A DNA stretch of 62,484 nucleotides from a virus. Position 1 is the stretch's first letter. The number at the start of each line of letters is the position of its first letter. Positions 2,090 through 41,428 of the stretch are shown piece after piece. The translations under genes and the position numbers were made by a program. Where the stretch lies: positions 1 through 62,484 of the IMG/VR virus record IMGVR_UViG_3300021963_000131; one strand, written 5' to 3'. The notes below the pieces were generated by a model. That model saw only the letters and a program-made list of their open reading frames with translations. It was not told the DNA's origin and searched no databases.

Positions 2090-4470
2090 TAACTACCGCC
2101 TTTCATACGTGATTTAATAAGATCAAGCTGTAGCTTGCGTTCGTTTTGCTGGTTCTGGTTCTGAAGCCGTATGCCTTCTTTCTGTGCTTCTACAGCGATC
2201 CGCTGCTGCTCAACGTTCAACCGCTTTTCAGCAATCTGTGCATCAATAGAGTCTTTCTGCGCTTTGCGCTGCTGCTCCATACCCTTGATCTGCAACTCCT
2301 GCTGCTGCATCTGAACCAGCGGATCTGCTGACATCTGTTGTGCTTGCTGTTGCGCAGCCTCAGCTTGATGAATCTGCAAGACCTGCTGTGCAGCCTCGGC
2401 AACATATTTAGCCATTGCCAACTCTTCAGCTTCAGAGACCTCCTGCTCAGGTCCGGGCAGCGGCGCACCCACACGCTGCTCAATCTCTTGACGGTATCTA
2501 AACCCTAAGTGCTCGGCAACGTGAGCCATCATCGCGGCCTGCATGGTTTGTGCCATTGGATTCTGACCTATGGTCTGCATAATGCTTGGGTCTTGCAAGA
2601 AGGTCATATGTGCTGTGATGTGCGCCTGATGATCCTGATAAATGAACGCTTTTAGCGGTACACCTTTGAGCACATTCATGTTCTCGGTTATAGGATCTTT
2701 GGGTTTCTGATCATCCGGCAGGGGTACTAGTTTGTCGGCGTTAGGAATACCCAACACATCCAACATCTGCCTATGAAGGCGAGGCATGTCATATAACTGA
2801 GGGGCACCTTGGGCTAGTTGTAAAGCGGCTTGATACTGCACAACCCGCTGAGCCATCGTCGAGGCGTTAGGATCAGACACGGGAATAACTTCGACAATGT
2901 CGTAGTCCTCAGCCTTAACCTGTGGGGTTCCATCCTGCGGCACGTAGCTGTAATCAGGTGAGGTGTACTCCCTGATAATTTCTTTGAGCAGCTTGAACTC
3001 TTCTTTCATCGCCGCATGGATGCGAGCCTGCACTGCACCCATCGTCTTTAACTGCCGCTCCAAGAGAGCTAGCGTCGTACCCACCGGAGCCTGACTCGAC
3101 ATATCGCTGATCTTCATATCAGCCATACCACTGAGCCGTCGTGCTTCTTCGGTAATCTGATTGAGTAGTGCTAGCAGCGTAGCACTGGGTTCTTTATAGG
3201 GCAGCGGCAGGATGTTGTCCCTGATCGCACCTCCCGGCACATCTACATCTCGCCATTCACCCGGAGCAATCGGCGTGTCATCACCTTTGATCCGCAGACC
3301 ACGAGCCTTTAACCCACCGGGGAGATTAGATAGCGACCCTGCATCCACCAACTGACGGATCAGCATGGTGCCTGCCGTGGCGTAGCCACCGATAATGTGA
3401 ATTAACCCAAAGCCATAAGCACCAAACCCAGGGATATACATATAGTGCACAAAGTGCTGACGCGCACGTTTCTGGGGGTCGTCTTCTCTGTAATTACGCC
3501 GTATGGCTAAAACTTTACTGGTGCCTTTATCAATCGTAATGACATAGGGCAGTGGCAGTTCTTCCTCATACCCCGGCAAGTCATACTCGATATGCACTTC
3601 GCATATCTGATACCGCTCGTCTTTAGTTTGCTCAACGCCTTCTTTTTGCGCTTTAGCTTTTTCAATATCCGTTTGATTTGCAAACGGGTCACCAAGATCA
3701 ATATCTCGATAAAATCTGCTGTACTGTAATCGTTTAATATCATTTTTAGTTTTACGCATCATGTGCGTAAGACGATCTGTACGGCGGATATTAGTTACGC
3801 CATATGGAAGAATGACATCTTCCGCAGGAATATAAAATGAAACCTGTCGTTCTAACGACGGATCATAATAAACCTTTTTAAATGACGAGCCTGCTAATGC
3901 AACGCCCCATAATGCGCGTTCATGCTCTGATCGATATTCAGGCATTTTGTCAGTTAGCTGATAATTCATATCAGCTTTTACGCGTTTACCCGCTTCTTCA
4001 ATATCAGGGGTAAACTGCCCAATAATTTGCGTCTTTACAGGCCCACCTGCCGGAAATGTTTCCATAATAGATTCGCTTTGAAAACGAATCGCTGCTTCAG
4101 TCAGCAACGTAGAGAACACACCGCAGGCACCATCCCAAGGCTCAGTGACTTCGTCATAACGTAGCCCAAGAACATCCAATCCTTTTACATAGGTATCAAC
4201 CCAATCTTTGCGGGAGTTAATATCTGCTTCAACCAACTCCATCACATCACTAGCGACTCTTTGCAAATCATTTTCTTGCATGAACTCGGCTAGATTAGAG
4301 TCAAACGCTTCTTCCCCATCCTCACCCCCCGGCTCGATCTCAATCTCCACCCCACCCATACCAATCGTTACGGATTCAGGATCTTCGATCTCAATCTCAA
4401 TAGGTGCTTCTTCAAGTGCCAAGGCTTCAAGTCCTTCGGGCATCTCGTACAGTGCTTTATCAATAGCCAT
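2089..4470 (-). CDS. portal protein (head-to-tail connector)
   Basis: 793 residues, within the usual size of P22-type portal proteins (700-800). The gene follows the large terminase with a 9-base gap, and an AGGACA site precedes the ATG at 4470. The first 50 residues are strongly acidic. The body carries WDGACGVFSTLLTEAAIRFQ, typical of the portal wing, and the C-terminal third is Gln/Ala-rich coiled coil (about 650-790), as in the P22 portal barrel. It would form the dodecameric ring through which DNA is packaged and ejected. Confidence 0.9.
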   Translation of the reverse strand: MAIDKALYEMPEGLEALALEEAPIEIEIEDPESVTIGMGGVEIEIEPGGEDGEEAFDSNLAEFMQENDLQRVASDVMELVEADINSRKDWVDTYVKGLDVLGLRYDEVTEPWDGACGVFSTLLTEAAIRFQSESIMETFPAGGPVKTQIIGQFTPDIEEAGKRVKADMNYQLTDKMPEYRSEHERALWGVALAGSSFKKVYYDPSLERQVSFYIPAEDVILPYGVTNIRRTDRLTHMMRKTKNDIKRLQYSRFYRDIDLGDPFANQTDIEKAKAQKEGVEQTKDERYQICEVHIEYDLPGYEEELPLPYVITIDKGTSKVLAIRRNYREDDPQKRARQHFVHYMYIPGFGAYGFGLIHIIGGYATAGTMLIRQLVDAGSLSNLPGGLKARGLRIKGDDTPIAPGEWRDVDVPGGAIRDNILPLPYKEPSATLLALLNQITEEARRLSGMADMKISDMSSQAPVGTTLALLERQLKTMGAVQARIHAAMKEEFKLLKEIIREYTSPDYSYVPQDGTPQVKAEDYDIVEVIPVSDPNASTMAQRVVQYQAALQLAQGAPQLYDMPRLHRQMLDVLGIPNADKLVPLPDDQKPKDPITENMNVLKGVPLKAFIYQDHQAHITAHMTFLQDPSIMQTIGQNPMAQTMQAAMMAHVAEHLGFRYRQEIEQRVGAPLPGPEQEVSEAEELAMAKYVAEAAQQVLQIHQAEAAQQQAQQMSADPLVQMQQQELQIKGMEQQRKAQKDSIDAQIAEKRLNVEQQRIAVEAQKEGIRLQNQNQQNERKLQLDLIKSRMKGGS

Positions 4471-17345: not shown

Positions 17346-18110
17346 ATGGCTACAAAGAAAGTTACGGAAAATACCATTCAGATTGTTGAGATGGAAACTC
17401 AGACGGTTACGTTTCACGTGATCGGCACTACACCTAAGATCTGCAACCGTATGCCTGAGAAGGCATGGCAGCAGTTGTTGCTTCCCTCTGGTCGCAAGAC
17501 TGCCGCTGAGAAAGCAGGATCAATGAAGCACGATCCGTTGGTTGAGTATCGCTCGTCTCCATACCGCATGCCATCAGGTGCTGCAACGGAACTAGCTGTT
17601 CTTGCTACGCAGTTTAAGGGTGCGTTGCGTAATGCTGCGTTGGATATGCCAGGAGCTAAGAAGTCTCAGATTGGACGCTTGGCATACGTGGAGGGGGAGC
17701 GCATTGAGATGTACGGTGTTCCTAAGATCTTCTCAAGTATCACTCGCTCAGCAGACATCAATAAAACCCCTGACGTTCGTACTCGTGCGATTCTTCCCAA
17801 GTGGGCATGCAAGGTTGATATTACTTATGTGCGTCCCGTGTTGAACCATACCGTCATCTCTAACCTCTTCGCTACAGCAGGTATTACGATGGGCGTGGGT
17901 GATTGGAGACCTGAGAAGGGTTCAGGTAACTACGGTCGCTACAAGATTGTGGATGCTGATGATCCTGAGTTCTTAGAGATTATTAAGAACGGTGGGCGTG
18001 ATGCACAGCTTGAGGCACTTGAGAATCCTGAAGCATACGACGATGAGACCGAGGAGCTGTTGTCTTGGTTTAATGCCGAGACCAAGCGCCGTGGTTTGAA
18101 AGTAGCTTAA
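17346..18110 (+). CDS. RAMP (Cas7)-like protein
   Basis: 254 residues. An N-terminal strand TVTFHVIGTTPKICNRM (20-36) is followed by FKGALRNA (90-97), matching the LKGxxR signature of RAMP-fold Cas7/Csm3-type proteins. A glycine-rich stretch at 183-201 ends in GSGNYGRYKI, like the GxGxxGRxxI loop of RAMPs. RAMPs are RRM-fold proteins that polymerise along RNA. I recall similar proteins as conserved hypotheticals in many phages. No cas1, cas2 or CRISPR repeats are nearby. Ten bases before its partner gene and directly upstream of the 5-nt-periodic array. The RAMP call is from motifs only. Confidence 0.55.
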   Translation: MATKKVTENTIQIVEMETQTVTFHVIGTTPKICNRMPEKAWQQLLLPSGRKTAAEKAGSMKHDPLVEYRSSPYRMPSGAATELAVLATQFKGALRNAALDMPGAKKSQIGRLAYVEGERIEMYGVPKIFSSITRSADINKTPDVRTRAILPKWACKVDITYVRPVLNHTVISNLFATAGITMGVGDWRPEKGSGNYGRYKIVDADDPEFLEIIKNGGRDAQLEALENPEAYDDETEELLSWFNAETKRRGLKVA

Positions 18111-18119
18111 GGAGTAAAC

Positions 18120-18584
18120 ATGGACAGAGCCGCAATAGCCAAGAGGTTAGAGGAAATTGCGGCCCTCCACGGAGGGCTGCTTACACCAGACATCGTAGTG
18201 GCAGATGCTAAAGACCCATCGAGTCCTTTGCATACTTACTTTGATTGGAACCTTAGCAGTGCAGCACATAAGCACTGGATTGATACCGCACGTAATTTAA
18301 TTGCTTCTGTGCGTGTGGTTGTAACCACAGAGAAAGTTGTTATCAAAGCACCTTTCTATCTGCGCGACCCAAGCAAGAAAGGTAATGAGCAAGGCTACAC
18401 CACACTCACCAAGGTACGTAGCGATAAAGATCTGTCGAGAGAAGTTATCAATAATGAAGTTGCACTCATTGTTGGTGCGTTACGAAGAGCAAAGAACGTA
18501 GCGCAGGCACTCGATATGGTGGATGAGATGGAAGAACTTCTTGAACAAGTCTTAGTCCTACGCAACAAGCTGGAAAAGGTTTAG
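18120..18584 (+). CDS. partner protein of the RAMP-like gene, unknown
   Basis: 154 residues, TAAGGAG before the ATG. Helical N-terminus (AAIAKRLEEIAALHGG), the phrase DPSSPLHTYFDWN, a short beta-rich centre (RVVVTTEKVVIKAPFYLRD) and a long C-terminal helical region (residues 100-154) ending in a coiled coil. Its stop codon TAG is immediately followed by the first GGCA-type word of the array (TAGGCAGG). Function unknown; it may be a second subunit of the same particle. Confidence 0.65.
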   Translation: MDRAAIAKRLEEIAALHGGLLTPDIVVADAKDPSSPLHTYFDWNLSSAAHKHWIDTARNLIASVRVVVTTEKVVIKAPFYLRDPSKKGNEQGYTTLTKVRSDKDLSREVINNEVALIVGALRRAKNVAQALDMVDEMEELLEQVLVLRNKLEKV

Positions 18585-19188
18585 GCAGGCATGGGTAGGT
18601 TCGGTCTGGTTTGACAAGGTGCGGTCTGGTAGGGCAGGTCGGGTCGGGATAGGTGCGGTGCGGTTCGGCACGGAGAGGCTTGGCAGGTAGGGTTCGGTTC
18701 GGCAGAGTGAGATCCGGTCTGGTATGGCAGGGCAGGTATTGCAAGGTGTGATGGGGTCTGGTGCGATCAGGCGCGGATAGGTTGGGCAGGTGAGGTGGGG
18801 TGTGTTGCAATCAGGTTGGGTTATTTTGGTGAGGCAGGTCAGGCGTGGTGTGGTGGATGAGGTATGGAGGGATGCGTTTAGGCAGGTTTCGTATGGAACG
18901 GATGGGTATTACATGGTTCGGTTCGGCAGGTCTGGTCTTGTGCGACTAGGTTGGGAGCGGTGTTTGAGGTGTGGTCGGGCATGGTACGGCAGGTCTGGTG
19001 AGGTTAGGAGCGATAAGGTCAGGTGAGGATTGGTGGGGCAGGTTAGGTGACGTACGGTTGTATTGGTGTGGTGAGTTTCTTATGGCAGGTTAGGTGAGGT
19101 CGGGATAGGTGTCTTATGACAATTCTGGCAGGTGAGGTGAGGTCGGGTGCGAACCGGCAAGGTGGGGTGAGGTTTGTTATGGCAGGTA
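18584..19188 (+). repeat. pentamer-phased (GGTNN)n / GGCA array, non-coding
   Basis: About 600 bases in which GG recurs every 5 bases, with the phase moving back one base at the word GGCAGG. Blocks between GGCA words start at 18588, 18637, 18686, 18735, 18789, 18837, 18885, 18929, 18992, 19041, 19088 and 19131. Four are exactly 49 bases (nine pentamers plus GGCA); the others are 43-63. In my hand parse 84 of 111 units begin with GG and the third base is usually T. The plus strand is very poor in C. No ORF with a ribosome site spans it. It lies inside the rightward operon, so it should be transcribed. Confidence 0.85.
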
Positions 19189-19205
19189 ATTTACAGGAGA
19201 TTTAC

Positions 19206-19373
19206 ATGGAAGATTTTGAAGTAGCACTTAGAGATCAGTTCGCTATGGCTGCTATCACGGGCATCCTTGCGGGTAAGTGGGGACAGATGCCTCAGTACAA
19301 ACCGGAAGAAGCTTTCGCTGACTTTGCGTACAAGATGGCAGACGCCATGATGAAACGGAGAGAAAAAGAATGA
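19206..19373 (+). CDS. small protein after the array
   Basis: 55 residues from the ATG at 19206, which has ACAGGAG upstream; the frame is open further 5' but only through the array. Helical (FEVALRDQFAMAAITGILAG, then AFADFAYKMADAMMKRREKE). Small proteins with a YxxADAMMxxRE ending are frequent in phage replication regions. Function unknown. Ends in an ATGA overlap. Confidence 0.65.
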   Translation: MEDFEVALRDQFAMAAITGILAGKWGQMPQYKPEEAFADFAYKMADAMMKRREKE

Positions 19374-25169: not shown

Positions 25170-25365
25170 TGATGAGTTGATTGCTTTGTGGAGCGCACGT
25201 TATGGTGAAGGTTGGCGTGTCTCAAATTTAGAATATATAAAGCTTAAGTGGGAAGACAACTTTGATGCTTCGTTTGCCAGAGAAATGTCGCGCAGAGGAT
25301 TGATTGAAAGACACCACCACATGGCTGAGCAAGTAACCCTATACAAACTAAAATGCAAATCATAG
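25036..25365 (+). CDS. unknown protein, start uncertain
   Basis: 109 residues from an ATG at 25036 with AAGGAG 6 bases upstream. The first 45 residues overlap the HNH gene in another frame and look non-protein-like; the part from KTWLTTASDDELIALWSARYG on looks genuine. The start may therefore be internal. Overlaps the helicase by 13 bases. Confidence 0.5.
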   Translation: MTKKVSTETENISITTCRSETEELLAKATRDLDPQVKTWLTTASDDELIALWSARYGEGWRVSNLEYIKLKWEDNFDASFAREMSRRGLIERHHHMAEQVTLYKLKCKS

Positions 25366-26930
25366 AAAATAAAGCAGTGCTGCTCAGGACACGCAAGCCT
25401 GACAAATACACTGTCATACCAAGGAGTAAACATCTCGGAGAGGTAGCGCCCGGACTACATGAAGTGCTTGTGTTCTGGGGTTTGGACGAGATGCGTGTCT
25501 TGCGCAATCTGGGTGTTAAAGCTGTGCCGTCACCCATCAAGGCTAAATACAACTGGCCGGGAAAGCACAGACCGTTTGCACATCAGATTGAAACAGCATC
25601 GTTCTTAACACTGCATCGTCGTGCGTTTGTATTCAACGATCCCGGTACAGGCAAGACGCTGTCTGCGCTGTGGGCTGCTGACTACCTGATGAAGAAGGGT
25701 TACGTAAGACGTTGTCTTATTTTGTGCCCCCTGTCCATCATGCACGATGCGTGGATGAACGGTATAGCTAAGAGCGTGATACACCGCAGTGCTATCGTGG
25801 CACATCATCAACAGGCAGTGCGGCGTATTGAGATGGTGCAGGGTGACTATGAGTTTGTCGTCATTAACTATGACGGTCTGAACTTAATAGCAAACGAAGT
25901 TGTAGCAGACGGACGCTTTGATCTCATCATCGTTGATGAAGCCAACGCTTATAAGAACGTCAGCACACGTCGGTGGAAAGCACTCAACAAGTTGATAAAG
26001 CCTACTACGTATTTATGGATGATGACAGGCACACCCGCTGCGCAGTCACCTGCCGATGCCTATGGGCTAGCTAAACTTGTTAACCCAATGGGTGTGCCAC
26101 AGTTTCAAACGGCGTGGCGTGATAAGACAATGCTGAAGGTTACACAATTTAAGTGGGTTCCAAAGAAAGATGCTCACATGGTTGTGTTTGATGCGTTACA
26201 ACCAGCAATACGTTACACAAAAGAAGAATGCACAGACCTACCCCCTGTGCTTGTTGAGACACGTGATATACCACTAACTGCTCAACAAAAAAAGTATTAC
26301 ATGCTGCTGAAGGAACTCATGGTGGTGCAAGCGGCAAACACTACCATCTCAGCAGTCAACGCTGCGGCAGGTGTCAGTAAGCTGTTGCAGATTAGCGCGG
26401 GAGCAGCGTACACAGATGACAAGGAGGTAGTTGAGTTTGACTGCGCTCCTCGTCTATCGGTGTTGATGGAAGTGCTTGAAGAAACAAAACGCAAGGTGTT
26501 GGTGTTTGCTCCTTTCAGGCACAGCATTGACACAATCCATAACTATCTTAACAAGCATGGCGTTGCTAATGAGTTGATACACGGCGACATATCTGTAAGA
26601 AAAAGAACAGATATATTCAAACGCTTTCAGACGGAAGAGAATCCAAGACTGCTTGTCATACAGCCACAAGCTGCTGCGCACGGTGTGACGTTGACTGCTG
26701 CGGACACTGTTATCTTCTGGGGGCCAGTGATGTCTGTTGAGACTTATAAACAATGTATCGCTCGTTCAGATCGTATTGGGCAGGACTCGACCAAGGTGAC
26801 AGTCATCCACCTACAGGGTAGTGACATCGAGAGAAAAATGTTCCAGATGTTAGAAGAACGTGTTGACGATCATGCGCTGCTCATAAAACTTTACGAATCA
26901 TGCTTGCGCGATGACAGAATAAATGTATAA
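25353..26930 (+). CDS. SNF2-type DNA helicase/translocase
   Basis: 525 residues with both RecA-like domains: motif I DPGTGKT (96-102), motif II IVDEAN (194-198, DEAN in place of DEAH), motif III MMTGTP, and in domain 2 VLVFAPF, VIQPQAAAHGVTLTAAD and motif VI QCIARSDRIGQ with the arginine finger. SNF2-family helicases are common in phage replication modules and act on branched or stalled DNA. Next to RecB/Cas4 and HNH nucleases it may form a recombination set. Confidence 0.9.
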   Translation: MQIIENKAVLLRTRKPDKYTVIPRSKHLGEVAPGLHEVLVFWGLDEMRVLRNLGVKAVPSPIKAKYNWPGKHRPFAHQIETASFLTLHRRAFVFNDPGTGKTLSALWAADYLMKKGYVRRCLILCPLSIMHDAWMNGIAKSVIHRSAIVAHHQQAVRRIEMVQGDYEFVVINYDGLNLIANEVVADGRFDLIIVDEANAYKNVSTRRWKALNKLIKPTTYLWMMTGTPAAQSPADAYGLAKLVNPMGVPQFQTAWRDKTMLKVTQFKWVPKKDAHMVVFDALQPAIRYTKEECTDLPPVLVETRDIPLTAQQKKYYMLLKELMVVQAANTTISAVNAAAGVSKLLQISAGAAYTDDKEVVEFDCAPRLSVLMEVLEETKRKVLVFAPFRHSIDTIHNYLNKHGVANELIHGDISVRKRTDIFKRFQTEENPRLLVIQPQAAAHGVTLTAADTVIFWGPVMSVETYKQCIARSDRIGQDSTKVTVIHLQGSDIERKMFQMLEERVDDHALLIKLYESCLRDDRINV

Positions 26931-31619: not shown

Positions 31620-31803
31620 GTTTCCCTTCCCGTGGGAGCACGTTCCACCGGGAGGGGGTTTCTTCGTCCCTACACTCAATCCACAACGTACTATAGAGAA
31701 AGCACACAGGGCGGCAATCGACGCCCGTGTGTTTCGATTTACTACTACCGTTTGTATTATCCAGCAGAAGCTTGGCGTCTATTTTCAGCGGTGGCGCGTA
31801 TAA
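31582..31803 (+). CDS. last early gene: small GGGFFVPTL-motif protein
   Basis: 73 residues from the ATG at 31582, inside the end of the primase gene, running 47 bases into the 3' end of the convergent giant gene. FPWEHVPPGGGFFVPTLNPQRTIEKAHRAAID and the final KLGVYFQRWRV match a short phage family with a VPxGxxFFVPTL core. No clear ribosome site. If real, the early and late transcripts overlap tail to tail. Confidence 0.55.
   Translation: MQSESQCQKSKTEFPFPWEHVPPGGGFFVPTLNPQRTIEKAHRAAIDARVFRFTTTVCIIQQKLGVYFQRWRV
31703..31731. terminator. bidirectional hairpin at the convergence of early and late genes
   Basis: CACACAGGGCG (31703-31713), 8-base loop, CGCCCGTGTG (31722-31731), one bulged base. 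On the plus strand it is followed by TTTCGATTT, on the minus strand by CTTTCTC. It sits within the small last early ORF and just past the giant gene stop. Weak T tracts make it a possible rather than certain terminator. Confidence 0.4.
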
Positions 31804-34800
31804 AGTTCTGCGCGTAGTTGATTCTTATCTGACGGATGCGCTCAAGCTCTGCTCGCTTCTGTTGAGGTGTCATGTCCTTGCGCTCGCGCACCTGTCGTTC
31901 GTAGGTAGCGTACTCGCCCATCTGTTGACGGAAAGATCCAGCCGAGGAAGCCAGTGAGATCAGCCCACGATTCTCTTGCAAGAACTCTTTGGCTGTTTCG
32001 TCATCACCCTTACGCATCAGCTCTTTGTACGTCTGCTGGCGTTGTTGAATGTTGCTGACAATCTCATATGCGTAGTTGATGAGCCCTTGAGCATCACGAG
32101 GCTGGAACAAACCACCAACAACTGGCATATCGCTAGGACGCATTTCAGCCGGAACTTTTCCGGGCTTCTCCAACACGGTGTTAGCCATGCTGGTCAACGC
32201 AAGTCCCAGCCCACCAAAGTATCCGCGAATGAGATAGTCAATCTGTATGGGCGATACACCGTATTCTTTACCTCCCACCGTAAAGCTGGCAAGACCGCTT
32301 AACGTTTTGGCAATCTCAGTGGTGTTTGACCTCATGCGTTGCGAAGGCGTAAACGCTTGTTCACGCTCGCTTTCAATACCGCGCCATGAGAAGAAGGAGT
32401 AGTTGGTCGCTACTTCAAGTGCTGGCTTAATAGCTTGCGGTATGAAACCGGGGATGCTGTTGAACAGAATGCTGCGTATGGCAGGGAACACTTGTCCAGC
32501 TTCTGCTTTACCAGACGACATGTTAACAATCATCTCAGGCAGTGCTTTAAACAGGTAGCCAACTTCAAACGGAATAGGTATGCGTACAGGTTCATCAAAC
32601 CCCGGCACGTACACAAAGAAGTTGTTGTACTTCTCATCAGGGTTAGCGTTCTTGTACGCTTCGTCGTCTTCCATCATGGCTGCATACGCTAGCGTCAATC
32701 CTGCAAGCAACATACCTCGCTGCCAGAATTTCTTGCGCACCTGCAAACGATCATTGAAAGGCATTCCCTTTGAGAAGCCCGAACGGTACAGCACGTCAAG
32801 ACCTTGGATCTGCGCATTCATGAACGGAACCATCATGGACATCAGGAACACGGAGGGGGACAACCCACGACGGTTAAAGTTCATCGACTCCAGCGTAGCG
32901 AGTGTGGCTTCCATATCGGACAGCCCCTGCTTGCGGAAATCGTTGTACAACACCACACGGGTAGAGGCGTCACCTTGAATAGCCAGCGCATCGAGCTTAG
33001 CCAGCTTAGTTGCCCACCCTTCTTTACCGCTTGCAATGTCTCGCAGGATGATACTCAAGTCTTCCGACGTACCAGTAAACACCTGCCCACCAAGCACACC
33101 ACGTTCACGTAACGCAGTCTCGCCTTCACTCTTGCCCTGACGCATTTTGCCCAGTTCTTTAAGCGAAGAGATTACAGGGATAAGGTTGCCGCCTGTCGTG
33201 AGCGCAGCCGATGTAGAGTCACGGAACAACTGCCTGAACGCATACAGCGGGTTACGTGTAACAAACAGTCGCAACGCACGGGCAGGAATGTTAAACATCT
33301 GTACAAGCTGTGGCACAGTGACTGCCACGCCCTCAAGACCTTTAACCAATAGCTCTGCGGGCACACCAAACGCTTCTGTGTCAATCACAGCGTGCATGTC
33401 TTCGCCACGTTCTTTGAAGCGTATGACGTTTGTACCTGCCGGTCCGTCACCCTTACCAATTTTGGCTACTGGAGAAAGGGTCGTGCCAAGGTCACGCAAC
33501 GTGTAAGCAACATTCTTGGTTGCAATATTGCGCAACGCAAGATCAACAAACATGTTGGTGTTTTGGACTGAGCTTGTAAAGAAGTCCAGAATCTTTGTGT
33601 TACCACCAACAAGTTGGTCTAAGTACGGTTGGTCTTTTAAGTTGCCTATTTTGATAGGACTAATTTCCCCACCAAGCATTAACTGAACAACGCCATTCTG
33701 CACACGGTAGTACGGTATGTAGTCGTTGGTGCTGAGCAGTTTGTTTTCTTGCTCTTTACTCAACGCCCCTGTCTGCACAGCAAAGTTAACAAGCCCTTTG
33801 TTGTACTCGTTATAAAGCTTACGTGCTTGTTCAAAGGGCGCTTTAATCTCAGGATGGGCGTCGATGTACTTCTTAAACCCAATCAAGTCACTCATCTTGA
33901 TCGACGGGTCAAAGTTCAGTGTCTCTAGCCCCACACGCTCAGCACGAATTGCAGCCATCCATGTGGTAAACATCTTATTGGCTGCATCCACATTCATATT
34001 TGGGATGCCCTTCAATGCAGCGGCAACATCTTTAAGAGAAGTTGTACCCCCGCTGCGCACCAAAAACTCTTCACTTCCATCAGCGCGTTTTTTCTTATCC
34101 AGAATCAGCGCACCGTTATTAACTGCTTCAGCCGTAAAGTTGTTGCGTTGATCGTGCATCCGCAAGAAGTATTGCATTTGCGTTGCAGCAAGCGAGTCTT
34201 TCATCTGCGAAGCTATGCGCATCACAGGTTCAAAACGATCAATATACTTGGTACGGAACACCATGCCGGTGTTACCACCAAAGATCTTGTCAGTTACGCT
34301 TGCAGGAGCGCCAACGAGTTTGTTAGTAATGTCTACAAAGTTTGTGGGCATGTCGGCAGGGAAAGCACCCTCACCTCTCCTAAACACAACATTACCATCA
34401 GCCGAACGGTATGCGCCTGTAGCACCTGACTTCATCACTTTGCGGGACTGTCTTAACAGATAGTAAACATCTGAGGCACTCAACGCGCCGTATCTGTTCA
34501 GCCCAAGCACTTCACGGAATACTTTACGCAGTGCGCCAATCATCTCCTGCACAAACCGTTTGATAGCACCAACGTTAGATTCAGTAACCCGTGCCTCTTC
34601 AACGTGTGCAATCAGCTCTCTTACAGCAGCGCGTTGCTGACCAATAACAGAAGCGCCAACACTTTGCAGGTTGATGATAGTGCCAGCCACTTCATCGTGC
34701 ACACCCATCTCTTTAGCTAGCCCAAGTATGCCCCCCGGCTGTGAATCAACACGGAAGACAAGATCATCAAGCCCACGCTCACCAAGCACCGTGTCAACGC

Positions 34801-37800
34801 CGTAGTGTCCAACTAACTCGTGTGCAATCGTGGTTTCAAGGTCAAGCATGTTGCCGTGGTTAGATCCAATGATGACAACCGTGCCATCCGGCATAACACC
34901 CCCACGCACTTTGGCAGTGTCTTGATCCATGCCTTGTTGCATGAGTGCGCGAATAAAACTCTTAGGCGCATCAAACAGTGTTTCAGCGTAAACAAGCTTG
35001 ACGCCTTTTGGCAAGCTAGCTTTAACTTGTTCAATTTTTTGACGTGCTTCTTTAAGGTCAACCATTGACCCTGCTTCATCATCAACACGGAAACTTGTTT
35101 CTCCCGCTGGGCCTGTTGATACAAGAAGCGTAGCGTCGTTTGTAAACTCAGTAACTTTTTCAGCAGTTGTGTCAAGACCAAACCGAGCGTTACGTGCGGC
35201 TGCTGTTTTTGCTCCTTGTAGAGCAAGACGTTCACGACGCTTCTCAGCAAGGGCAATATCAATGTCTGGCGTTTTACCCATTGCCAAACGTTGATCTGCT
35301 CCACCTCCTCTGAGTGGTTTAAGGCGTTGCTGCTTTGTTGCTACTTTTTCACCAGCAATAATTTCTTTGCCTGTATCGGTTAGGCGTGTTTGTTGCTCAG
35401 CTCGTGCTGCCGCATACATCTCAGCAGTTGTAAGGAGTACAGTATCTCCCTGCAACGCTGCAAGATCCGTACGAAGTTCTTTAATTTTGCCTTGAAGCTT
35501 TGACCGTTTTTGTGTGTCTGCATCAGGCGCGTCACGAAGTTCCTTGTTGGTTTTATCAATTAAAGACTGTATTTTTTCTTCAACGCTTTCGTCCGGCGCT
35601 TTGTATTTTTTAGCAAGCCGTTCAACCGCTGCTTGATAATTCTTCTCAATGTTGCGCTGCTCTTTTAACCAAACAGGCGTTTCGTTGAGCAACAATTTGC
35701 GCTCGTTTGAAAAGTCTTCCAAATAAACTGTACCGCCTCTGATCTCGTTCAAGCTTTCGCTCGACATATCGTTGGCATTTTTCTTATCGATTGCTTCTTC
35801 GATTTTTGTTTCTAGCGCACTAATTTTTTCCGTGAGCTTTTCAATCTGCTTGGGTTTTGTTGCTTGTTTAAGTTGTTTGTTAAGCGCGGCAACCTGAGCC
35901 CTAGATTCTTTGATGACTTTTAAGTTTGCTTTTACAAAATTGTTGTGCGCATTAATGTCGTTGATTTGCTGCTGAAGCGAAGCAACCTGCTGATCAATAA
36001 CAGTAGTTCTGTCTACGGTTTGTTTTTTACCATCAACAAAAAGCGTAACAACATCTTTCTGCTTTTGCGCAATTTTGCGAGCTTTCTTTAGTGCGTTGAT
36101 ACGCGTTTTTAACTCGGCAATAGTAGATGTAACAGGCAGTAAAACTTTGATTTGTTCTTTAGGCGTCGTAACGCGACGTGTAGCAGGAACAACTTTGTAT
36201 CTGTTAGTGATACCAAAAAACGCTTCGTTAATCGAGACAATGCCGTCCATCGCAGCAAGCTCTGCCTCTCTAATGCGTTTGTTCCTATCGTTAGCGTCCG
36301 CCATTTCTTTACGTACGCTTTCAAGCTGTGCAACAAGCGCACGTTGTTTATCCTGCTCAGTTTTTTGAGCACGTTCTTCGCCAATGTTTCTTTCGGCTCC
36401 GGGAAGTTGTTTAATTCTTTCAAGCCGCGCTTTCAAGCGATCAAGCTTTTCACGCTCTTGCTGTACACGAGAATCAAGCGCAGCTTGTAAACTAAGCTCT
36501 TGTTCAGTCAGTGCAGTTGGGCCTTGTTCAACAAGCTCATTGTATGCAATTTGCGTTTGATATAACGCAGACAGCGCATCGCTGTGATCTGCTTCAAGTT
36601 TTTTGAGCCGCGTATTTAAATCAACAACATCTTGATAAAAAGAATCCCCTTCTGTGCCTTGCAAAGAATTTTGCATTGCTTCAAGCCATGTTTTTATTTT
36701 GCTAATTTCATTTTCAAGTTTTTTAACGCGATCAACCAAAGGAGGGATGTCAGCCTCTAGCGTCTTTATATCTTCAATAAATTTTACAATTCCATTTGCT
36801 ACATCGTTAACCCCTGAAATCACTTTTCGTACTTCACCAAGCGTTTTTAGCGTTATGACTTCTTGATTGCGTACATCTTCAACAGCTTGGCTTATACGCT
36901 GTCGCAGCTCAATAACTTGCTTTCCGCGAATAATCTGTTGCGTTTCAGCAGCTTGCTTGTTAAGAAGTTGCTTAATGCCATTAATAACTTTAATGGAAGC
37001 TGCAAAAATTTCAGGTGTGCTACGTATAAATACCCTAGCGTCTTCACTATCGCTAAACAACTCAAGCTGCTGTTCCAACGTGGTTACTTCAGACTCACGT
37101 CTTAGCAATTCCTGAATCTTAGGCAGCAGTTCTGCTTGCCCTAAGTTATAGCGCATGGTTGGCACATCAGGCGCTTTTGCATTTATTAAGTCGTTTAGTT
37201 CGTCCCGCAACTTATCAATAGCCGCTTCACGTTCTTTTATCTGCTCCACTGTTATAAGGGCAGCGCGTTGTTCTGGCTTTAACGGTTTTTGTAATGCTTT
37301 TTGTGCATCTGCAATATCGCGGTCGAGTGCTGCACGAGCTTCAAGAATTTCTTGTTGCTTTGCTTCTTGCTGTTTAAGATTTTCTTTTTTCCAAGCACGT
37401 TCGTTTTTATTTACTTGTGCTTCTGTGCTAATTGGAAGTTCAGCAGTGCCTGCACGAGAAGCTAATACTTTTCCTTCTGTGCGTTTTGACCCAAGTACCA
37501 ACTGCAACATACGTGGTGCTTGCCCACGCAGATTAGGATCATTGGTGTTAAACGGCATATCAATACCGTTGATGATGCGGTCGGTTTGTTCCAACACAGC
37601 ATCAACTAACTCTTCAGACGGTTTTGAAATTGTTTCAAATTCTGCAAACGCTTGTGCAAGCTTGGGATCAAACCCTAAGTTTGTAACTGCTACACGATTG
37701 CGAATACGCTCAATTTGATCAAGGGCTGTTCTAAGTTTTGCCTCTGGTGTGCCACGAGCTTTTTCTGCACGAAGCTCAAAAAGTTTCTGAGACTCACCAC

Positions 37801-40800
37801 GTAACTCAAACTCCCCTTCTTTTGAAGTGCGTTTTGCTTGGGGGTTACTGTAGGTCGTAACAATATCTTCAAGCTGTTCTTCAATAAGGCTAGCCGCTTT
37901 ACGTGGGTCAGCAAAAGGACGCTCTTCAGTTTTACGCGTATCGCTTGCCCTTGTTGGCGTAACCAACACTTCTACAATCTGAGTCCGCGCAGGCGCATCA
38001 ATTTCTTTCAAAAACGCATTGATACTTTTTTGAATTCCAAGCCTTTCTAAATTTGCACTTTGTCTGTCAAGTGGTTCTTTTTTAGCCTCAAGCTCTTCAA
38101 TCTTTTTTAACTTTGCCGGATCTGGGATTGCAGATGGGTCTGCGTATTTAGCATCGCTTAACTCTTTACGTAAAGCTTTAATCTCATCGGCAATAGTTCT
38201 AATTTGCGCAATAAGTTTGTTTTGCAGCCCAACAGCGTTTTGAATGCGGTTTACTAGCTGTTTTAAATTGGTAAGATCTTTAGGCGTAGTAAGGATTCGT
38301 TTTTCAAGAACTTGCGTAAGTCTGTCCAGCAGTTCTTCAGAACTACGTGCTTGCAAACGGTCTGATAGTTCTGTCAGCAGTGCCTCAGCTTCTTTACGAA
38401 CCGTATCCGCTTCTTCTTTGTTTAACGCACGGAAACCTTTTTCAGCTCTTTGCTCATTGATTTGCTGCACCAGTGCATCAAGGTAACGCGTTTTAATTTG
38501 CTCTGTTTTTGTTTTGCGATCTTTGGTTAACGGTAAGATGGACTGCGACTCTTGCAGACGTGCAAGCTCAAGGTCAGCTTGCCGAACACGCTTCTCATCC
38601 CCAGCTCTTTTTGCCGCAGCTTTAAATTTTTCAAGCCTGTTAACGCGGCGTTCAAACTGAACAGGGTCCGTGGGTTTCTTTAACAACGCAACTGCATCAA
38701 ACGCATAGTCAACAAAGTCTTGGAACGCTGTATCTTTTGCAGACGCTGCATCCGGGGCAACAGCAAAACGCTCCTCACGTAGCTGCTCAAGCTGTTTGTT
38801 TAAGTTTCCAAGACGTTCTTCATCACGCGTTTCACGCGCAATCTGCCTTTGTTTATCAAGCGCTTCAATCTGTTTGTCAATATCGCTACGGGTTCTTACA
38901 GGCTTGGTTGGCGCTGTCGTTGTCTTTTTAGTTTCAATAGCAGAAACAGCTAACGAACCTGCAATGCCTTCACCTTTTTCAGGTGTTACTTCGGGCTTCT
39001 CAAGATACTGACGCAGAACTTGAAGCTGAGCTTCTTTTCGTAATGCAAGCAAACCTTTTTCGTTAAGCTGGCTTGACCCGTCAGGTTTAAGTAAAGATTC
39101 ATCGCTTGAAAGTAAAGCTTTTTGTTCTGCTTCAAGCTTGGTAATACGTTCCTGAATAAGACCACGGATGGACAGTTCTCCAACTGTCGCGTCGATATTG
39201 CGCCCTCCAACTACCTTTCGGAAAGGGGTAGTTGGCAAGCCAAGAGCTTTTGCAATAGGTTGCGTAATACGCCCACGGTCAAGGTTAAATGCTAAGTTTG
39301 AATTAAGGGCTTCATCACTTTGTTGTTCAAACTCTGTGTTCGCTTGTTCTGCGGCTTCTCTGGCATCCATACCAGAAGCTCTAAGTTCTGCTGCGCGAGT
39401 TTTAATAAAGTCTTGTTCAGAAAGCTGCGTAACAGGTAAATCCAGCGCAGCCGCAACCATGCGCGGGTTCTCAAGCCTACGCTCAACAGCCGTTATGCCA
39501 GACTCAAACCCTGCAAGCTCAAATTGCTCCTGACGTTGCTGCCCCGCAGCAGCACCACGTGTTTCAATATCTTTAACAAAGTCTGCATCTGCGGCTTCAA
39601 GGGCTTCAACATAAGATGCCGGAAACCCTAACAAAGTTTCGTCTTGTTTCTTATCAAGCGCGTACTCTTCAGCCGATCCGTATATTGTTTTGAGTTGCGG
39701 GTTTTTCTTAAACTCTTTCTCAGCTTGTTTTATTTCATCATCAGTCAGCGCCTGCCGTGCCTGCAAACGGCGTGACTCTTGCATAGAAGCAAGTTCAGCC
39801 TTTTCCTGCCGTGCTGTTTCGTCTGCTCTAAGCTTAGCAAGTAACTCTTGCTGTTCTTTATCTTTAGCTTCTTGTTGCAGTTGTGCCTGTTTCTCACGCT
39901 CAATACGCTGAGCATCCATTGCTTGTGCGTAGGTGTTAAACGACGGGTATTGCTTTTTAAGCTCTGTACCTGTGACTGGATCGTTCCAATCTTGAAATGC
40001 TTTAATAAGTACAGCCTGTGGCATACGCGCCATGCGGTTGTAGCCTTCAGCCTGCGTTGCTTCAATGTCAACATCTGACCGTGGGGCGCGTAAAACTCCA
40101 AGCCCTTTTGACTCAGGCGCATCAAAAGCAAAACCAGACGGCGAAACAACATTACCAAACTCATCAACAACAGGACGACCTTTAGCAGCCTCCTGCTCCT
40201 CACGCTCACGCATGATGTCAGCAAAGGTACGCTGCGCTTCAGGCACGTTCTCTTTAATCTCGCTGGCTATTTCACGTAGCCGCGATTTGATTTCTGCCTG
40301 TCGTGCTTCTGCGTCAAACGTTTGTTCTTTTGTTAACGACTTAGCTTCAATGGCTTGCTGTATACGAATGAACTCATCACGTAGCTGTACACGCTCAGCG
40401 TTTAGTTCTCGTGCATATTCAGGCGTACGTTTACGCGCCTGCTCTTGCTCCAGTGCCTGCTGACGCTGTTTAACTTTTTCTTGCTCAAGCTGATCTCTTG
40501 CCCCACTGCGTTCCTGCACACGAGCAAGTGCACCAAAGGCTGGAGCTGACAACGCAGTTTGATAAGCCGTATCGCCGTATTCTTTAAGCGCTTCATCTGA
40601 AGCTAGCGGGAGCCCAGCTTGCAAACGCTCAAGCATTGACTGCGTAACTTCGGTCGGAACTTCAACGCCTATACCACGTGCTGCACCACCAGCAAGGGTA
40701 CGCTTCAGGCTTTGCTCAACAAGTGCTTTGCCAGCTTGCGTTTCAAGCGCTTTTTCAACAGGTCTGCCGATGAGCTTACCAACAAGTTGTTTGCCCAAAA

Positions 40801-41428
40801 TAAACGAACCTGCCGCAGTCTCAATCCCTGCTTGTGCAGTTGCTGCCGCAGCCGCTGATGCGGCGTCAATCGTTTTGCCTTCGGAAGCTTGCCGTGAAAG
40901 GTTAGCCCCGAACTGCTGAAGAAAAGAAGGCGCGAAGGCACCCGCAGCCCCACCAACTGCGGCACCTACTCCTGCTCCAACGGGACCAAAGACTGCCCCC
41001 GCTGCCGCGCCCAAACGTGCGCCACCAAACGCACCACCCAGAGAAACCCCGACTTGTGGAATCTGCTCAGCAATAGCCCTCGGCGCTTGAACGCCAAGCA
41101 CTTCTTTAACTCCGCCAAACAACCCCTCTTGTTCATACCGTTTGCGTAACTGCTCAAGGCCAACTTCGTCTGCATAACGAGAAGCTATGCTACGTTCACG
41201 AAGCGCTGCATCCTTTGCAGCCTGTTCAGCATCGAACAGTCCGGCTATACCCGTGCGTAAACTTGACAGCGTTGACTCAGCGCCCCTGCCTAATGCGCCT
41301 GTGATGCCCCCACTTCTGGGGTAAAGGTCAGGGAACTTTTCACGCAGAATAGTTTCTGCTTCTTCCCGTGGCATCGAGTCAGGAAACTTTGCTTGTCTCC
41401 CGTCTGGCATGGGTAGGAAATACGCCAT
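31757..41428 (-). CDS. giant (3223-residue) internal virion/ejection polyvalent protein
   Basis: Last gene of the late operon; AAAGGA before the ATG. The N-terminus (MPDGRQAKFPDSMPREEAE) is typical of large phage internal proteins. A Gly/Ala-rich hydrophobic stretch (about 140-175) could insert in membranes. Residues about 330-2050 are mostly Glu/Lys/Gln-rich coiled coil. TIAHELVGHYG near residue 2200 resembles the metallopeptidase motif of polyvalent proteins (HExxxH spacing). The last 950 residues (NDYIPYYRVQ..., then MLLAGLTLAYAAMM) look like the LPD38-type C-terminal domain. Expected to be packed in the head or tail and injected with DNA. Confidence 0.8.
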   Translation of the reverse strand: MAYFLPMPDGRQAKFPDSMPREEAETILREKFPDLYPRSGGITGALGRGAESTLSSLRTGIAGLFDAEQAAKDAALRERSIASRYADEVGLEQLRKRYEQEGLFGGVKEVLGVQAPRAIAEQIPQVGVSLGGAFGGARLGAAAGAVFGPVGAGVGAAVGGAAGAFAPSFLQQFGANLSRQASEGKTIDAASAAAAATAQAGIETAAGSFILGKQLVGKLIGRPVEKALETQAGKALVEQSLKRTLAGGAARGIGVEVPTEVTQSMLERLQAGLPLASDEALKEYGDTAYQTALSAPAFGALARVQERSGARDQLEQEKVKQRQQALEQEQARKRTPEYARELNAERVQLRDEFIRIQQAIEAKSLTKEQTFDAEARQAEIKSRLREIASEIKENVPEAQRTFADIMREREEQEAAKGRPVVDEFGNVVSPSGFAFDAPESKGLGVLRAPRSDVDIEATQAEGYNRMARMPQAVLIKAFQDWNDPVTGTELKKQYPSFNTYAQAMDAQRIEREKQAQLQQEAKDKEQQELLAKLRADETARQEKAELASMQESRRLQARQALTDDEIKQAEKEFKKNPQLKTIYGSAEEYALDKKQDETLLGFPASYVEALEAADADFVKDIETRGAAAGQQRQEQFELAGFESGITAVERRLENPRMVAAALDLPVTQLSEQDFIKTRAAELRASGMDAREAAEQANTEFEQQSDEALNSNLAFNLDRGRITQPIAKALGLPTTPFRKVVGGRNIDATVGELSIRGLIQERITKLEAEQKALLSSDESLLKPDGSSQLNEKGLLALRKEAQLQVLRQYLEKPEVTPEKGEGIAGSLAVSAIETKKTTTAPTKPVRTRSDIDKQIEALDKQRQIARETRDEERLGNLNKQLEQLREERFAVAPDAASAKDTAFQDFVDYAFDAVALLKKPTDPVQFERRVNRLEKFKAAAKRAGDEKRVRQADLELARLQESQSILPLTKDRKTKTEQIKTRYLDALVQQINEQRAEKGFRALNKEEADTVRKEAEALLTELSDRLQARSSEELLDRLTQVLEKRILTTPKDLTNLKQLVNRIQNAVGLQNKLIAQIRTIADEIKALRKELSDAKYADPSAIPDPAKLKKIEELEAKKEPLDRQSANLERLGIQKSINAFLKEIDAPARTQIVEVLVTPTRASDTRKTEERPFADPRKAASLIEEQLEDIVTTYSNPQAKRTSKEGEFELRGESQKLFELRAEKARGTPEAKLRTALDQIERIRNRVAVTNLGFDPKLAQAFAEFETISKPSEELVDAVLEQTDRIINGIDMPFNTNDPNLRGQAPRMLQLVLGSKRTEGKVLASRAGTAELPISTEAQVNKNERAWKKENLKQQEAKQQEILEARAALDRDIADAQKALQKPLKPEQRAALITVEQIKEREAAIDKLRDELNDLINAKAPDVPTMRYNLGQAELLPKIQELLRRESEVTTLEQQLELFSDSEDARVFIRSTPEIFAASIKVINGIKQLLNKQAAETQQIIRGKQVIELRQRISQAVEDVRNQEVITLKTLGEVRKVISGVNDVANGIVKFIEDIKTLEADIPPLVDRVKKLENEISKIKTWLEAMQNSLQGTEGDSFYQDVVDLNTRLKKLEADHSDALSALYQTQIAYNELVEQGPTALTEQELSLQAALDSRVQQEREKLDRLKARLERIKQLPGAERNIGEERAQKTEQDKQRALVAQLESVRKEMADANDRNKRIREAELAAMDGIVSINEAFFGITNRYKVVPATRRVTTPKEQIKVLLPVTSTIAELKTRINALKKARKIAQKQKDVVTLFVDGKKQTVDRTTVIDQQVASLQQQINDINAHNNFVKANLKVIKESRAQVAALNKQLKQATKPKQIEKLTEKISALETKIEEAIDKKNANDMSSESLNEIRGGTVYLEDFSNERKLLLNETPVWLKEQRNIEKNYQAAVERLAKKYKAPDESVEEKIQSLIDKTNKELRDAPDADTQKRSKLQGKIKELRTDLAALQGDTVLLTTAEMYAAARAEQQTRLTDTGKEIIAGEKVATKQQRLKPLRGGGADQRLAMGKTPDIDIALAEKRRERLALQGAKTAAARNARFGLDTTAEKVTEFTNDATLLVSTGPAGETSFRVDDEAGSMVDLKEARQKIEQVKASLPKGVKLVYAETLFDAPKSFIRALMQQGMDQDTAKVRGGVMPDGTVVIIGSNHGNMLDLETTIAHELVGHYGVDTVLGERGLDDLVFRVDSQPGGILGLAKEMGVHDEVAGTIINLQSVGASVIGQQRAAVRELIAHVEEARVTESNVGAIKRFVQEMIGALRKVFREVLGLNRYGALSASDVYYLLRQSRKVMKSGATGAYRSADGNVVFRRGEGAFPADMPTNFVDITNKLVGAPASVTDKIFGGNTGMVFRTKYIDRFEPVMRIASQMKDSLAATQMQYFLRMHDQRNNFTAEAVNNGALILDKKKRADGSEEFLVRSGGTTSLKDVAAALKGIPNMNVDAANKMFTTWMAAIRAERVGLETLNFDPSIKMSDLIGFKKYIDAHPEIKAPFEQARKLYNEYNKGLVNFAVQTGALSKEQENKLLSTNDYIPYYRVQNGVVQLMLGGEISPIKIGNLKDQPYLDQLVGGNTKILDFFTSSVQNTNMFVDLALRNIATKNVAYTLRDLGTTLSPVAKIGKGDGPAGTNVIRFKERGEDMHAVIDTEAFGVPAELLVKGLEGVAVTVPQLVQMFNIPARALRLFVTRNPLYAFRQLFRDSTSAALTTGGNLIPVISSLKELGKMRQGKSEGETALRERGVLGGQVFTGTSEDLSIILRDIASGKEGWATKLAKLDALAIQGDASTRVVLYNDFRKQGLSDMEATLATLESMNFNRRGLSPSVFLMSMMVPFMNAQIQGLDVLYRSGFSKGMPFNDRLQVRKKFWQRGMLLAGLTLAYAAMMEDDEAYKNANPDEKYNNFFVYVPGFDEPVRIPIPFEVGYLFKALPEMIVNMSSGKAEAGQVFPAIRSILFNSIPGFIPQAIKPALEVATNYSFFSWRGIESEREQAFTPSQRMRSNTTEIAKTLSGLASFTVGGKEYGVSPIQIDYLIRGYFGGLGLALTSMANTVLEKPGKVPAEMRPSDMPVVGGLFQPRDAQGLINYAYEIVSNIQQRQQTYKELMRKGDDETAKEFLQENRGLISLASSAGSFRQQMGEYATYERQVRERKDMTPQQKRAELERIRQIRINYAQNFIRATAENRRQASAG

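Follow-up and report, generated by a model that had tools for sequence, protein, structure and literature searches.

The window analysed here is the viral record IMGVR_UViG_3300021963_000131 over its full length of 62,484 bases, a tailed-phage record with genes for terminase, portal, family A DNA polymerase, helicase and primase. It contains a locus in which a gene for a 254-residue protein, a small partner gene and a long tract of GGYNN pentamers follow one another (Table 1), and which is assigned below to the VIPR (Viral Interference Programmable Repeat) systems, with the protein named Vipr, the partner as vap-like and the RNAs of the array as vrRNAs. A model that read only the DNA letters had proposed that the three parts form one candidate RNA-guided or RNA-coating system, which is referred to here as the original prediction.

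Genes and array of the locus

The array begins on the stop codon of the partner gene, the last G of TAG (18584) being the first G of GGCA, and ends (about 19190) immediately 5' of the ribosome-binding site of the open reading frame at 19206. The junction of partner gene and array, with everything on the + strand, is therefore as originally predicted. No prominent promoter-like or terminator-like sites were found on the sense strand around the locus, no Rfam family matched between 17000 and 20000, and the array DNA had no match in the INPHARED phages.

Thirteen GGCAGGY marks divide the array into 12 units; what follows GGCA in each of them, the body, measures 39-59 nt, corresponding to about 8-12 pentamer slots. 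The units adjoin one another with only GGCA between them and have no 3' tail. Within 18584-19190, one GGY follows another at a spacing of five bases 46 times, as opposed to a mean of 4.5 and a maximum of 11 in 500 dinucleotide shuffles of the same stretch, and spacings of 3, 6, 7 and 8 occur 0 or 1 times each; the 13 marks compare with a mean of 0.54 and a maximum of 4 in the shuffles. Since GGCA consists of four bases, every mark moves the pentamer phase by one and acts as a register reset, and a global count of phases looks flat for this reason. With 8-11 stops in each of the three sense frames, the array is not a coding repeat. Tandem Repeats Finder reported no CRISPR-like array at 18584-19190, where only the 7-base mark recurs, in agreement with the absence of CRISPR repeats noted earlier.

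The RAMP fold of Cas7/Csm3 proteins had been suggested for the 254-residue protein because of a KGALR motif and a GSGNYGRYKI loop. Both are present when counted on the translation (residues 91-95 and 192-201), and in an alignment of 74 sequences the invariant residues G183, R188 and G197 make up the glycine-rich loop. The AlphaFold2 model obtained from the alignment of 74 relatives (pLDDT 95.3, pTM 0.88) supports the suggestion: its top Foldseek matches in the PDB are Csm/Cas7-type subunits with a best E of 5.2e-6, and VIA-align gave a Z of 9.7 to the Csm subunit Csm3 over 153 residues at 4.1 Å, covering model residues 16-205. Pfam RAMPs matched one of the 74 family members (E 8e-4). The predicted fold is thus shared with Cas7/Csm3 of class 1 CRISPR-Cas systems (type III-A Csm, type VII), whereas the identity is 9-12% in the top ten VIA rows, CRISPR repeats are absent and the gene stands in a phage operon beside GGYNN units.

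The AlphaFold2 model of the partner (pLDDT 94.2) shows a region of helices and short strands that leads into a hairpin of two helices. Compared with the PDB it gave no clear match, with a best Foldseek E of 0.33 and a VIA Z of 8.1 that concerns the C-terminal hairpin alone. In the PHROGs library, Vipr matches phrog_4652 (E 4.2e-12) and the partner phrog_15946 (E 1e-14), neither of which has an assigned function there; both are here tied to VIPR. PADLOC, run on the two proteins alone, reported no match, and no relatives of the window Vipr were confirmed in GTDB genomes.

Table 1. Features of the VIPR locus and one further site, with positions in the 62,484-base window.
Feature	Position	Strand	Basis or content
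vipr, predicted RAMP (Csm3/Cas7-like) protein, 254 aa	17346..18110	+	Open reading frame, fold, profile match
vap-like accessory (partner) gene, 154 aa	18120..18584	+	Open reading frame, phrog_15946, co-occurrence
vrRNA array, 12 units between 13 GGCAGGY marks, non-coding	18584..19190	+	Period and mark counts
GGCAGGY marks	18584, 18633, 18682, 18731, 18785, 18833, 18881, 18925, 18988, 19037, 19084, 19127, 19181	+	
Unit 2	18633..18681	+	NN code CG CG TA GC GC TC AC GA TT
Unit 9	18988..19036	+	NN code CT GA TA GC AA CA GA TT GG
Unit 12	19127..19180	+	NN code GA GA CG GC CC AA GG GA TT AT
Helicase-gene site fitting the guide of contig L025 at 20/26	26681..26719	-	Within gene 25353-26927

Relation to VIPR and distribution among phages

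VIPR was described in a preprint of April 2026 (PMC13142463; bioRxiv 2026.04.26.720920), beyond which our literature search found no further paper on the system. According to this work, VIPR consists of the RAMP protein Vipr, an accessory vap gene and vrRNAs with 9-16 YNNGG repeats, in which GGY is conserved and NN hypervariable. The NN pairs recognise double-stranded DNA in an NNxNNx register, where x, the base passed over, mostly coincides with the wobble position of a codon. The vrRNAs are recovered together with Vipr on purification, and they silence a reporter and confer protection against lambda; reprogramming of NN alone changes what the complex of phage SUSP1 binds. In nature, the guides are directed at satellites, prophages and other VIPR loci, and the systems fall into seven types (PMC13142463).

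Against the PDB, the profile of the 74-protein family hits chain 36pp_D, which bears the name SUSP1 Vipr protein, with an E of 6.4e-34, and the family hidden Markov model (HMM) finds the vipr gene in the SUSP1 genome with an E of 2.7e-32. On the basis of these two matches, the locus in the window is a VIPR locus, and the 254-residue protein is a Vipr with a modelled RAMP fold of the Csm3/Cas7 type. The locus shares with the described systems a phage-encoded Vipr that is homologous by profile, the minimal layout of vipr, a small accessory gene and a long intergenic region, a tandem-repeat RNA region of GGY and NN with about 8-12 slots per unit and, in relatives, one-base-skip targets that include other VIPR loci. 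It differs from SUSP1, which belongs to the type II clade, in that the SUSP1 tracts carry a common 3' tail, whereas the window units have GGCA marks instead, and in that GGY is relaxed in the window and its siblings, here called the window family. The partner shows no detectable relation to the neighbour gene of SUSP1 vipr (no HMM match, hhalign probability 0.1), a divergent one being possible; by analogy with types II, VI and VII of the preprint and from the layout of the locus, it may be a DNA-binding helper. The new kind of ribonucleoprotein that had been anticipated is consequently not found here: the kind of system is that of PMC13142463, of which the window locus is a further example.

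The array-side survey, composed of two pattern scans of viral contigs, one protein search and the window locus, yielded at least 218 loci; all survey counts refer to loci and not to independent phages, as some contigs were fetched twice. Among the matches listed (218 loci), array, Vipr and partner occur together in 82, array and Vipr in 26, array and partner in 2 and the array only in 20, while 12 have Vipr without an array, one the partner alone, and 75 neither array nor genes, which we think are mostly chance pattern matches. Also among the matches listed, the partner homologue is found in 84 of the 130 array-bearing loci, and the genes lie on the G-rich strand of the array in every case, Vipr in 109/109 and the partner in 84/84. 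In the reverse direction, 80 loci were selected with the protein of one relative (L028) as query. A strict array lies near Vipr in 66 of these and the partner in 73, and array and vipr are co-oriented in 73/73 pairs. In the stretches inspected, most of the remaining 14 loci have tracts with the same period that are shorter or less strict, while in L335, L346 and L381 the array score there is at most 2. This co-occurrence and co-orientation in both sets bears out the proposal of a single system made up of gene, partner and array, and homologues of the protein are not regularly found without an array. The constant orientation relative to vipr and partner points to an array that acts as RNA rather than DNA.

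Named phages are also represented. ODay and BobaPhett were among 35 records with a Vipr match, and Cyanophage Cy-LDV1 was obtained from the partner search. An array lies beside the gene in all three regions read, before it in BobaPhett and after it in ODay and Cy-LDV1. In Mycobacterium phage BobaPhett, gp52-gp53 are homologues of Vipr and vap, and gp19 of Gordonia phage ODay is a Vipr homologue, all being annotated as hypothetical proteins; g34 of Cy-LDV1 is probably a Vipr homologue as well, judging from its position.

Several variants of the array were observed. GGYNN arrays with separators other than GGCA occur in L198 (1044-1627), L116 (4600-5060), L123 (2217-3406) and L192 (3233-4394), the separators being the hairpin-like TTTCTCTGGCGAGAAATTTTTAT, GGTAAGGCTAATGGGT, GGAATGGTTTAATGAATTTAAT and GGCAGTT, with a Vipr homologue near most of them. 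On the 119-kb contig L038 (at 2486-3857), two adjacent Vipr homologues precede a 1.6-kb array, and the tracts near the Vipr homologues of L379, L381 and L382 resemble a related consensus (GTTA-/GTTNN-rich, GGCAGTT marks) and fail the strict GGY test.

Gapped matches of the guides

The one-base-skip code was tested in relatives with 604 guides decoded from GGCA-type arrays, restricted to units whose bodies measure 40-90 nt and divide evenly into pentamers. They were searched against phage DNA (about 3.7 Mb, both strands) with arrays masked and 0-3 skipped bases. At a nominal E < 1e-4, four of the 604 guides matched at a skip of one base and none at skips of 0, 2 or 3, and the 1208 shuffled guides searched at skip 1 gave no such match; an earlier run with fewer data gave two guides below 1e-3 at skip 1 and none at the other skips. 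At the laxer cut of E < 0.1 there were 21 at skip 1 as opposed to 6 and 6 in the shuffles, of which some matches of window guides are not countable because they lie in loci fetched with the guides' own patterns (L262-L305). None of the four strong targets lies in such loci.

The first of these guides, from L035, fits the vipr genes of six other contigs (25/26 in L347; 24/26 in L028, L050, L073, L088 and L106). A guide of L363 fits, at 23/24, a gene in L370 that is presumably ATPase-like according to its motif, and a guide of L386 fits, at 25/28, a gene with the motif ENCETSA(V/I)GRALG in L363 and L056, which we take to be of the annealing type, likewise from the motif. The fourth, from L025, fits the helicase gene of the window sibling G005 at 24/26 and the window copy at 20/26. 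In the three targets other than vipr, the NN pairs sit on codon positions 1-2. In addition, a guide of L106 scores 22/26 on two vipr genes, those of L025 and L035; with fits of 24/26 and 22/26 at skip 1, the IMG/VR contigs L035 and L106 each carry a guide fitting the vipr of the other, an apparent case of mutual VIPR-against-VIPR targeting. The first or last pair is mismatched in all four strong targets and the outermost pentamers have a biased NN composition, and for these reasons the terminal pentamers probably serve as a handle and not as part of the address. In the relatives outside the window family, NN frequencies track codon positions 1-2 with an r of 0.71, as opposed to -0.54 to 0.20 for the other five frames.

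Between homologous units of the window family, 44 substitutions fall on GGY vs 13 on NN, where 3:2 is expected, and unit 12 and its counterpart in L002 have an identical NN code with changed GGY letters. Each of the 12 window units is found again in siblings, unchanged or with at most four substitutions and in other combinations, as if units were swapped among sibling phages like traded cassettes.

Matches of units 12 and 9 were close to what chance provides. The eight pairs of unit 12 found 21 matching stretches in viral contigs, 14 of them in one protein family with the motif RAPNGEFY, which we take to be nucleotidyltransferase-like; they are not counted as targets because about 20 are expected by chance (a rough estimate) and homologues are not independent. 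Eight pairs of unit 9 gave 23 matches in viral contigs, the best 17/18, which is about chance level. A sibling guide had no exact match in viral contigs over nine pairs and, over 11 pairs with up to three mismatches, matched none of 25 records.

The best candidate target of the window units is suggested to be a fused UDG-DNA polymerase gene (Pfam UDG and DNA_pol_A) on the 34-kb phage contig G025, record IMGVR_UViG_3300033067_000599, in which the inner eight pairs of unit 12 fit, this being the source of the contig, and unit 2 fits at 17/18. With the selecting unit left out, window units fit G025 better than other family units (Mann-Whitney p 0.028), while the same rank test gave p 0.54-0.97 for ten control sequences and 0.10 and 0.90 for two distant relatives of the contig; this is suggestive only, because the contig was examined owing to a prior match. 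A search for closer relatives of the gene returned only itself; two distant named phages were found.

Elsewhere in the window, the stretch 11900-15145, upstream of the VIPR locus, holds two closely spaced genes, one for an ATPase (phrog_1297) and one that is metallopeptidase-like/VWA (DUF2201; phrog_1314), and an open reading frame of 3.2 kilo-residues occupies 31760-41428 on the - strand.

Weighing of the explanations

We assign a probability of roughly 90% to the reading that the window holds the VIPR locus of a tailed phage, in which Vipr-vrRNA guides read DNA with one skipped base and silence genes of rival phages. Vipr gene, vap and array would probably be transcribed as one sense unit, and the array RNA would be processed to vrRNAs, one per GGCA-marked unit. 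Vipr, in its modelled fold, may align along the vrRNA with one subunit per GGYNN, as suggested by the preprint and by Csm3. The GGY would be held by the protein and remain unpaired, while the NN pairs would address double-stranded DNA in the pattern NNxNNxNN, in which x would usually be a third codon position; this reading rests on experiments for SUSP1 (PMC13142463) and here on sequence matches, mainly in relatives. Binding would block transcription of target genes in rival phages, including vipr and genes of replication and recombination, vap would help, probably by contacting DNA, and the array would be a swappable bank of guides, as the units recur in new combinations in sibling phages.

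Several observations weigh against this reading. The target searches left every window guide without a secure target, and in the window family the fit of NN to codon positions 1-2 is weak (r of 0.32 for sense and 0.47 for antisense). Outside the window family, substitutions number 13 on GGY and 16 on NN, so that NN is not more conserved there. In the earlier run, one shuffled guide reached 2.3e-4, and the E-values of the guide search are therefore nominal only. A single-sequence search with the window Vipr did not reach SUSP1 Vipr, which is found by profile only. Finally, GGY is intact in 51-100% of the slots by position in the window family, below other GGCA-type arrays.

The lowered GGY fidelity, the weak codon signal and the lack of secure targets, together with 4-nt slots that move the phase within some units of the window family, would also suit a VIPR array in decay, which still evolves and recombines while many of its units no longer work. 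We consider this unlikely, since NN is more conserved than GGY in the family, Vipr is 91-100% identical in most siblings and every window unit recurs in a sibling.

Far less probable is a coat or decoy, in which the protein would form polymers along GGUNN RNA, the RNA itself would tie up a factor or be packaged, and NN would be uninformative. TRAP, for example, binds GAGNN repeats, and the strict period, the constant triplet and the RAMP fold would suit such a repeating protein footprint. However, NN is non-random and tracks codon positions 1-2 in relatives, it is conserved over GGY between homologous units of the family, and its matches in genes of other phages appear at a skip of one base only. 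Of the roles considered in the original prediction, anti-phage silencing is thus retained, while the uniform coat or decoy most likely falls away, as the units look like guides. A DNA-level element without guide function (iterons, a partition site, a G-quadruplex or Rho-site tract) is scarcely credible given the strand constancy in both sets of loci and the code test in relatives, even though one strand is G-rich and the other C-rich and a period of five might correspond to half a helical turn.

Further comparisons were dropped in view of the VIPR preprint, the code tests and the points raised against the coat and the DNA-level element: a TRAP-like coat, a ToxI-type repeat antitoxin, iterons or a partition site, a rut-like antisense strand, Chi-like islands and mutagenesis of the diversity-generating retroelement type.

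Within the VIPR reading, we tentatively propose, as a possibility that falls short of an even chance, that the window family is a tail-less variant, in which one long G-rich transcript with GGCA register resets would serve a whole guide bank. The terminal pentamers would be the handle and the inner NN the address, GGY may drift, and units would be traded as an exchangeable, inherited memory of rivals without Cas1-like machinery.

Drawing on uncultivated phages, the analysis independently supports the recent claim that RNA guides recognise DNA through a gapped code. Beyond the main text of the preprint, it adds the conservation of NN while GGY drifts, the mosaic recurrence of guide units in siblings, two phages with guides fitting each other's vipr and putative targets in genes of the replication and recombination type. 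It also indicates a likely function for two PHROG families and for hypothetical proteins of cultured Mycobacterium and Gordonia phages.
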